Below are positions 1 through 1,679 of a DNA stretch of 64,000 bases, piece by piece; positions within the stretch are counted from its first letter, which is position 1, and every line of letters begins with the position of its first letter. The notes under the pieces were generated by a model. That model had not been told where the DNA came from, did not search any database, and saw only the letters and a list, made by a program, of their open reading frames with translations. This DNA is from Hwanghaeella grinnelliae (GTDB lineage Bacteria; Pseudomonadota; Alphaproteobacteria; UBA8366; Aestuariispiraceae): NCBI RefSeq assembly GCF_004005845.1, contig NZ_SADE01000003.1, positions 434,001 through 498,000 on the forward strand, read 5' to 3'. The position numbers were made by a program, and so were the translations under genes.

Positions 1-1442
1 TCAGTGGCACCGCCGGGCTTGTCTTCCAGCACGACGCCCTGCGCCTTCAACCCATCGCGGATTTCGTCCGCGCGGGCGAAGTTCTTTTCTGTCTTCGCCG
101 CGATCCGCTCGGCGATCAATGCTTCGATTTCTTCAGCCGACGGGCCGCCCGCGGCACTCGCCGACCCTTCGCCTTTGAGCCATTGATCGGGGTCCACCGC
201 CAGCAGGCCCAGTGCCTCAGTGCAGTGCAGAAGCCGATCCAGATCGCCGATCGCCGCAATGCGCGCGCTCACCTGTGTGCCCTGCTTGGGCGCGTTTTCT
301 ACTTTCATCAGACTCATATTCAACTGCCGCGCGATACCAAATACGACAGCAAGCGCTTCGGCCGTATTGAGATCGTCCTCCAACGCGCCATAGAAGCTTC
401 GAATGGTTTCGTCCGACGGATCGACGCCGGGGAGTTCCTCCATCAGGGGTTCGGCCTTTCTCAGCGTCCCGTACAGACGGTCGAGGGTCGCCTTCGCTTC
501 TCGGCATTTCTCTTTCGAGAAGTCGAGCGGCTGGCGGTAATGGGTCTGCAGCAGGACGAGGCGCAGGGCCTCACCCGGAAACTCCTCCAGTAATTCGGCG
601 ACGGTGTAGAAGTTGCCGAGGGATTTCGACATCTTCTCGCCTTCGCTGAGCAGATAGCCGTTATGCATCCAGTAGCGGGCGTAGTCCGAGCCCTTGTGAC
701 CGCAGCAGCTTTGCGCAACTTCGTTCTGATGGTGGGGGAATATCAGATCCTGCCCGCCGCCATGAATGTCGAAGGTCTCGCCCAGATACTTGCTACTCAT
801 GGCCGAGCATTCGATATGCCAACCCGGCCGGCCATAGCCCCAGGGACTTTCCCAGCCTGGTTCGTCGCCGGAAGACGGTTTCCACAGCACGAAATCGGCC
901 GGGTCTTTCTTGTAGGGGGCGACTTCGACCCGCGCGCCGGCCACCTGCTCGTCCCGGTCGCGGCCTGAAAACTTGCCGTAATCCGGCCAGGACGGCACGT
1001 CGAACAGCACATGCCCGTCCTTTTCATAGGCATGGCCGTTTGCCACCAGCTTTTCGATAATATCGATCATCTCGGCGATATGGTCGGTCGCGCGCGGCTC
1101 CACATCCGGGGCGACGCATCCCAGCGCAGCGGCGTCCTGGTGGAAGGTCTCTATCGTCGCGTCGGTGAGCTCGCGGATGGTAATCCCGCGCTCGGCAGCG
1201 CGATTGTTGATCTTGTCGTCAACGTCCGTGATGTTCCGAACATAGGTGACCTTCCCGTCGAATTCGTGGCGCAACAGCCGGGCGAAGACATCGAACACCA
1301 CAAGCGGCCGGGCGTTGCCGATATGGATCCGGTCGTAGACCGTCGGTCCGCAGACATACATGCCGACGCCCTTCCCCGCGGGATCGATCGGTGTGAATTC
1401 TTCTTTCTGCCGTGTCGCCGTATTATGAATCCGAATGGTCAT
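1..1442 (-). CDS. cysS: Cysteinyl-tRNA synthetase (3' end cut by window edge)
   Basis: Class I aminoacyl-tRNA synthetase that charges tRNA-Cys in the cytoplasm. The translation shows the N-terminal block with the CGPTVYDRIHIGNAR form of the HIGH motif, the WHIECSAMS zinc and substrate region, and the EKMSKSLGN form of KMSKS. It reads without interruption to the window edge, where the last visible residues (GVVLEDKPGGAT) match the family's C-terminus, so only a few residues are missing. The ATG is preceded by an AGCAGG-type ribosome binding site. About 100 nt upstream is a 21-codon leader peptide ending in a cluster of Cys codons, and behind that a sigma70-like promoter. The gene is therefore probably controlled by Cys-tRNA charging. 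Confidence 0.97.
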   Translation of the reverse strand, partial: MTIRIHNTATRQKEEFTPIDPAGKGVGMYVCGPTVYDRIHIGNARPLVVFDVFARLLRHEFDGKVTYVRNITDVDDKINNRAAERGITIRELTDATIETFHQDAAALGCVAPDVEPRATDHIAEMIDIIEKLVANGHAYEKDGHVLFDVPSWPDYGKFSGRDRDEQVAGARVEVAPYKKDPADFVLWKPSSGDEPGWESPWGYGRPGWHIECSAMSSKYLGETFDIHGGGQDLIFPHHQNEVAQSCCGHKGSDYARYWMHNGYLLSEGEKMSKSLGNFYTVAELLEEFPGEALRLVLLQTHYRQPLDFSKEKCREAKATLDRLYGTLRKAEPLMEELPGVDPSDETIRSFYGALEDDLNTAEALAVVFGIARQLNMSLMKVENAPKQGTQVSARIAAIGDLDRLLHCTEALGLLAVDPDQWLKGEGSASAAGGPSAEEIEALIAERIAAKTEKNFARADEIRDGLKAQGVVLEDKPGGAT

Positions 1443-1548
1443 GACCTGCTGCCTCTGAGCATCCGCGCGGCGGAGCCCTCAAAAATATTCAATTTGGGAA
1501 GTTAAGCGGCTTCTTTGTTCCGTCGGCCACCGAAACGCTGTCGAAGGA

Positions 1549-1614
1549 TCAACAGCACCGACAGCCGCAAATAATGCGGCAGGGGGAGATAATGATGATT
1601 GCGGTGGGGGACAT
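1549..1614 (-). CDS. Cys-rich leader peptide upstream of cysS
   Basis: This is a 21-codon open frame reading MSPTAIIIISPCRIICGCRCC then stop. Five of the residues are Cys, and four of them fall in the last six codons. It starts about 30 nt after a predicted promoter and ends 107 nt before the cysS ATG, on the same strand. The RNA for the GCTGTCG stretch inside its Cys codons (1559-1565) can pair with CGACAGC at 1537-1543. Shifted by one base, it can also pair with CCGACGG at 1520-1526, so the two stems exclude each other. Codons for the amino acid of the downstream synthetase overlapping switchable stems is the classic layout of ribosome-mediated attenuation. The function is inferred. Confidence 0.72.
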   Translation of the reverse strand: MSPTAIIIISPCRIICGCRCC

Positions 1615-1649
1615 GCCCTAACGCCTCGCCTCGGATCGAAACCGGGCGC

Positions 1650-1679
1650 ACTATAGGGAAAACGACCCAGTCTTGGCAA
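1650..1679 (-). promoter_or_regulatory. Predicted sigma70-type promoter for the cysS leader
   Basis: Reading the minus strand, TTGCCA (1674-1679) and TATAGT (1650-1655) are separated by 18 nt. Transcription would start near 1643, about 29 nt before the leader-peptide ATG. This places the leader peptide and the alternative stems in the cysS transcript. Confidence 0.6.

Follow-up and report, generated by a model that had tools for sequence, protein, structure and literature searches.

Upstream of the cysS gene of Hwanghaeella grinnelliae, which encodes cysteinyl-tRNA synthetase, lies a short reading frame rich in Cys codons. This raises the question of whether the frame is a leader peptide, through which a translating ribosome adjusts cysS expression to the charging of tRNA-Cys, and by which output such control would be exerted. 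The locus was analysed within a 64,000-nt stretch of genomic DNA, referred to here as the window, and compared to the cysS upstream regions of related and more distant bacteria.

Genomic context and leader frame

Read along the minus strand, the window contains gltX (4065-2719), an oppositely oriented gene (1911-2648), and then cysS, which runs from 1442 to the window edge and is the only full-length copy in the genome. The intervening gene, located on the plus strand, encodes a PEP-CTERM-like protein (PF07589; its E value of 6e-4 narrowly misses the cut-off). The features at the predicted start of the cysS transcription unit are as follows.

1..1442, minus strand: cysS, cysteinyl-tRNA synthetase (ATG 1442-1440; PF01406, 3.8e-121; DALR_2; CysS_C), extending past the left window edge
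1650..1679, minus strand: sigma-70-type promoter TTGCCA-N18-TATAGT (-35 at 1679-1674, -10 at 1655-1650), a sequence match pointing at cysS
1549..1614, minus strand: leader peptide frame of 21 codons, MSPTAIIIISPCRIICGCRCC, with Cys at codons 12, 16, 18, 20, and 21
1579..1581, minus strand: Cys codon 12, where simulated stalling abolishes the terminator of the congener (locus L086) and the terminator-like helices of the window

The initial annotation had placed a promoter-positioned 21-codon leader ahead of cysS, and both elements are present: the promoter-like site at 1679-1650 is the only one between 1400 and 1900 (0.2 expected from shuffles), and the leader ATG follows its -10 element by 35 nt. 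From the position of this site, transcription of cysS is expected to start near 1643. The leader stop is separated from the cysS ATG by 106 nt, rather than the 107 nt given previously. The Cys codons occupy 1581-1579, 1569-1567, 1563-1561, 1557-1555, and 1554-1552; their earlier assignment to 1558-1565 therefore holds for codon 18 and fails for the other four. An ATG frame located no more than 250 nt before cysS and containing five Cys within any ten residues occurred in none of 20,000 dinucleotide shuffles (four Cys in seven of them), and a degenerate pattern for the IICGCR portion of the peptide has a single match in the 5.3-Mb genome, at this leader.

Conservation of the leader in the congener and the family

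The only congeneric genome (G004, locus L086) carries the leader MTPTIVIAFPICRIICGCRCC in the matching position, upstream of a cysS gene 84% identical to that of the window over the matched N-terminal part. Between the two leaders, codons 12-21 (the last ten residues, CRIICGCRCC) differ by three synonymous and zero non-synonymous changes, as compared to seven amino-acid replacements in codons 2-11. The G004 assembly also includes a second cysS (L099; 54% identical) on the 3.6-kb contig C312, which is probably foreign (the genome has 7% contamination).

The search of relatives for Cys-rich short frames upstream of cysS, which the initial annotation had put forward as a check, recovered a leader of this kind in 12 of the 14 family genomes; it is absent before cysS in L087 and L098, both from one genus. 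In the cysS tree, the family forms its own 14-row clade (support 100), apart from the Rhodobacterales and Hyphomicrobiales rows. Within the family, IICGCR is contained in the leaders of L089, L090, L094, and L095, while L093 reads IISGCR, with the first and key Cys of the motif changed to Ser; L091 contains ITGCC, and the leaders of L088, L096, and L097 end in CCC. In L092, a 17-codon frame spotted by eye has its Cys pair in a perfect stem of nine pairs, CGACTGTTG/CAACAGTCG. A TTGCMA-N16-18-TATAGTGC promoter located 35-41 nt before the leader ATG is common to the eight closest leaders (groups g1 and g7).

A strict automatic filter, which required an ATG frame of up to 40 codons with three Cys among ten residues, gave hits at six of the 14 family loci versus 0.25 expected and at 11 of the 17 Rhodobacteraceae-type loci versus 0.85 expected, and at none of 23 gammaproteobacterial and other loci. 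The class-wide result, 14 of 107 loci, was not used as a leader count because several of these matches are false. Candidates at L192, L179, L191, L184, L151, and L147 were rejected as leaders, being out-of-phase reads of the gltX 3′ end upstream of cysS; such gltX ends adjacent to cysS are a trap for automated uORF scans.

It is most improbable that the Cys codons arise by accident from the phase in which a conserved RNA hairpin (GCGGCnGUCGGUGnUGCUGA) is read, the frame then being untranslated or non-regulatory. In favour of this reading, the arm containing the window's distal Cys codons aligns with the antiterminator strand of the g7 genomes, in which the phase at this place encodes other residues. 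However, TGC/TGT exchanges alter bases yet keep Cys, the changes relative to the congener across codons 12-21 are synonymous only, the g7 leaders have Cys codons outside that strand, and a Cys leader with other sequence recurs before cysS in Rhodobacterales and Rhizobiaceae. Comparison of sequences thus confirms the Cys-codon leader before cysS in the window as real and conserved.

Ile clusters, defined as ATG frames with at least four Ile in ten residues, were observed beside the Cys codons in the window (1614-1549), in L086, L089, L090, L094, and L095, and in Rhodobacterales loci. They are enriched in eight of 14 family loci and nine of 17 Rhodobacteraceae-type loci, which sensing of Cys-tRNA does not predict and which would fit a reading in which sensing is done by the peptide itself, whose Ile- and Cys-rich nascent chain would stall the ribosome in response to cysteine, metal, or redox state. 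This reading has little probability, since the leader peptides differ widely across lineages except for Cys (and Ile), and the regulated gene makes Cys-tRNA, so that tRNA charging is the fitting signal. A related and similarly far-fetched idea is that the conserved Ile-Ile-(Ile)-Cys stretch could be a nascent-chain element, with peptide and codons sensing cysteine together, in which case the combined sensor might be ancient in Alphaproteobacteria (the window family, Rhodobacterales, and Rhizobiaceae).

Pairing of the Cys-codon segment

The segment that encodes the distal Cys residues takes part in two predicted pairings.

1537..1556, minus strand: hairpin GCUGUUGA (1556-1549)/UCGACAGC (1544-1537), probability 0.99 when free
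1506..1568, minus strand: outer long-range pairing GCGGCU (1568-1563)/AGCCGC (1511-1506) plus GUCGG (1562-1558)/CCGAC (1526-1522), a candidate antiterminator

In the inner hairpin, one arm (1556-1549) extends from the end of Cys codon 20 through codon 21 to the stop, and its partner (1544-1537) lies downstream. Compensatory changes in the stems, which the initial annotation had named as support for its proposal, were found here: relative to L086, the stem has two compensatory pair changes and one compatible (single-sided) change, as counted on the stem directly in a comparison of two sequences only, for which the automatic alignment had misplaced a gap. The double changes affect the third base of each of Cys codons 20 and 21, where TGC TGT becomes TGT TGC in L086 with Cys kept, and the partner bases follow the swap, from C-G to U-A and from U-A to C-G. 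The alternative pairings proposed earlier exist as complementarities (1565-1559/1543-1537 and 1564-1558/1526-1520), but they are not the preferred stems; the former has a probability of 0.00, with 1544-1537 preferring 1556-1549.

With the ribosome placed at Cys codon 12 and the RNA ending at 1478-1496, the outer helix 1568-1563/1511-1506 reaches a probability of 0.80-0.88. For the duplex between the window's Cys-codon segment (1569-1549) and the 75 nt that follow, the predicted energy is -28.4 kcal/mol, as compared to -17.3 in shuffles (p = 0.004). The corresponding value for L086 is p = 0.002; several other leaders are similar, those of g7 mostly not, and the 12 leaders combined give 3e-6, uncorrected for kinship. 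The leader RNA of the window as a whole folds with no stability beyond that of shuffles (z = 0.11), and the case therefore does not rest on total fold stability. Rfam 15 covariance models yielded zero matches in 1300-2000 up to E = 5.

Codon-by-codon simulation of the predicted switch

Folding was simulated for successive ribosome positions, with the RNA free from 12 nt beyond the A-site codon to the end of the candidate terminator, and compared with 300 shuffles of the intervening sequence per locus. The terminator arms were picked by eye for eight loci, a subjective step taken because the automatic T-run finder returned misleading hairpins and overlooked the terminators of several relatives. 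A strong hairpin is located at the expected terminator place in L086, L091, L094, and L095.

In L086, the probability of the terminator GGCGGCC/GGCCGCC rises from 0.00 for a ribosome at Cys 12 to 1.00 for one at the stop, a contrast reached by none of the 300 shuffles and maintained for ribosome footprints of 10-14 nt. With the ribosome at Cys codons 16-21, the terminator stays formed, and these distal codons give no help in the folding model of this locus. The same key codon/stop contrast is 0.00/1.00 in L091 (0/300 shuffles), where key codon 12 is Thr, two before the Cys pair; 0.03/0.99 in L089 (8/300); 0.12/0.96 in L095 (9/300); and 0.22/0.99 in L093 (13/300), where the key codon is Ser. 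L090 has a weak switch (0.34/0.99; 31/300), and L094 has none in this folding.

The window itself offers the following candidates.

1505..1539, minus strand: weak candidate terminator helices GUGGC (1530-1526)/GCCGC (1510-1506) or AGCG (1539-1536)/CGCU (1508-1505), with the tail UUAACUU

The helix GUGGC/GCCGC is homologous in position to the L086 terminator, and the helix 1539-1536/1508-1505 has a probability of 0 when the ribosome is at Cys 12 and of 0.6-0.7 when it is at Cys codons 20-21 or the stop. For the window terminator candidate, the Cys-versus-stop contrast was equalled or exceeded by 236 of 300 shuffles. The earlier remark that a clear T-run terminator is lacking was borne out by a search of 1400-1900, in which a terminator-like site of this kind was not found. 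In the window, the sensor is thus clear and the output poor.

Proposed mechanism of cysS regulation

The leader is very probably part of a ribosome-mediated attenuator of cysS that reads tRNA-Cys charging, as suggested by the promoter-like site, the frame, the conservation of its Cys codons, the conserved pairing, the codon-dependent switch modelled in relatives, and a published precedent involving this gene and codon (PMC8632094). Transcription would begin near 1643, and a ribosome would translate the 21-codon leader. When Cys-tRNA is scarce, the ribosome would stall on the Cys codons, chiefly codon 12, leaving codons 16-21 and the RNA that follows to fold on themselves and capture a strand of the terminating or closing hairpin; this hairpin would then be prevented, and cysS would be expressed. 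When Cys-tRNA is ample, the ribosome would reach the stop and melt the upstream fold, the downstream hairpin would form, and cysS expression would be lowered. Control by ribosome stalling in response to Cys-tRNA charging, the core of the initial annotation, gains support from the family leaders, the compensation in L086, and the simulated stalling in relatives. Homology with L086 makes intrinsic termination the likeliest output step in the window, followed by Rho and then by translation.

There is a sizeable, though less than even, chance that the same sensor works through another output, with the leader governing termination by Rho or the accessibility of the cysS ribosome-binding site in place of an intrinsic terminator. 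In detail, AAGCCGCUU (~1513-1505) could pair with the Shine-Dalgarno region of cysS, AGAGGCAGCAGG, and GCGGCU could withdraw AAGCCGCUU at a codon-12 stall. The absence of a T-run terminator from the window is consistent with such an output, as are folds extended to cysS+20, which pair part of GCCGCUUAACUUCC with GAGGCAGCAGGU with the ribosome at codon 16, 18, or the stop; moreover, the mycobacterial cys leaders are without terminators, and Rho has been proposed there (PMC1262725). In contrast, the Shine-Dalgarno pairing is not conserved, by inspection, in L086 or the g7 genomes, and the strong hairpins of L086, L091, L094, and L095 stand at the expected terminator site. The preferred reading for the window is an attenuator of cysS with intrinsic termination as the likeliest output.

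Cys frames before cysS in other Alphaproteobacteria

Loci from Rhizobium and Ensifer have a common 14-codon leader, MKTV(T/I)CIICRKIIR, before cysS. In further alphaproteobacterial families, unrelated peptides are encoded by Cys frames before cysS, as in L195, L210 (MTCRCCRKNTTES..), L157/L166 (..CGACGR..), L136, and L219, sometimes followed by a terminator-like hairpin; independent origins of these frames are possible. In Rhodobacterales and Rhizobiaceae loci such as L045, L059, and L064, as well as in L157 and L166, a -10-like element ends, by eye, ~4-12 nt before the ATG, and these cysS leaders may be leaderless, unlike that of the window. An alphaproteobacterial MAG (L067) has, 55-139 nt before cysS, a frame of 27 codons, nine of them for Cys (MTHQSCSCKKCDCHGNCGKNCACGCCK), together with a good Shine-Dalgarno sequence; this frame may represent a leader or a metallothionein-like peptide.

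Comparison with known systems

Classical proteobacterial attenuators of the trp/his type combine a leader peptide, regulatory codons, and mutually exclusive hairpins. The window fits this class in having a short frame with codons for the pathway amino acid between promoter and gene, as read from the sequence. Mutually exclusive hairpins are seen in silico in L086, L091, L089, and L095; in the window, the complementarity is significant and the switch is not. The window further differs from the trp/his type in amino acid and gene, and in that its terminator is not demonstrable. Attenuation of aminoacyl-tRNA synthetase operons was reportedly surveyed by Lopatovskaya et al. in 2010, and Canestrari et al. 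are said to have described polycysteine short ORFs in 2020, leaderless frames by the title.

Cys leader peptides without terminators have been noted for mycobacterial cys operons, P. acnes cys, and B. longum cbs (PMC1262725, 2005), and the mechanism of the mycobacterial leaders has been attributed to translation attenuation (PMC13236596). These actinobacterial leaders resemble that of the window in their short frame, Cys codons near the stop, cysteine-related gene, and lack of an obvious terminator; they differ in belonging to another phylum and in preceding biosynthesis operons instead of cysS.

The closest known system is the uORFC-8-2 motif, of which a 2021 screen reported 145 examples, exclusively upstream of Rhodobacterales cysS (PMC8632094), so that the suggestion in the initial annotation that no Cys leader had been described for alphaproteobacterial cysS was mistaken. 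The motif combines two stems and a U-run with a short frame in which Cys codons stand in tandem, and has been read as ribosome-mediated attenuation by tRNA-Cys charging (PMC8632094); the Rhodobacterales loci examined here show a leader of this type, e.g., MNCICIIICCITC (L064). Both uORFC-8-2 and the window have an AUG frame directly upstream of cysS on the same strand, with conserved Cys codons in a stem (UGC being dominant in uORFC-8-2). However, the tandem Cys codons of uORFC-8-2 are usually codons 14-15, whereas those of the window are codons 20-21, with the others at 12, 16, and 18, in two groups; the window leader is laid out as 21 codons with five Cys and an ATG 35 nt after the -10; uORFC-8-2 has a U-run terminator stem, in contrast to 1400-1900 of the window, where no terminator-like site was found; and uORFC-8-2 has been described for Rhodobacterales only, an order outside of which the window family is placed by the cysS tree.

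A covariance model built here from 13 Rhodobacterales leaders (R1, distinct from the published uORFC-8-2 model) recognized the Rhodobacterales-type loci L028, L035, and L057, which lie outside the model, with E < 1e-10, and matched Rhizobiaceae at the leader with E 0.006-0.04. The matches to L086 (E = 0.1), L089 (0.27), and the window (1.3) each fall exactly at the leader and are below membership, which suggests distant kinship with uORFC-8-2 rather than membership. The window leader and uORFC-8-2 are of one kind but differ in lineage and layout. Cys-codon attenuation of cysS would extend past Rhodobacterales to the window family and, judging by the loci sampled, to Rhizobiaceae and a few other alphaproteobacterial families, suggesting that many Alphaproteobacteria tune cysteinyl-tRNA synthetase to tRNA charging via a leader peptide. 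The finding is of use as annotation and extends the published motif modestly, without introducing a new principle, and the leader frames offer a ready handle on cysteine stress.
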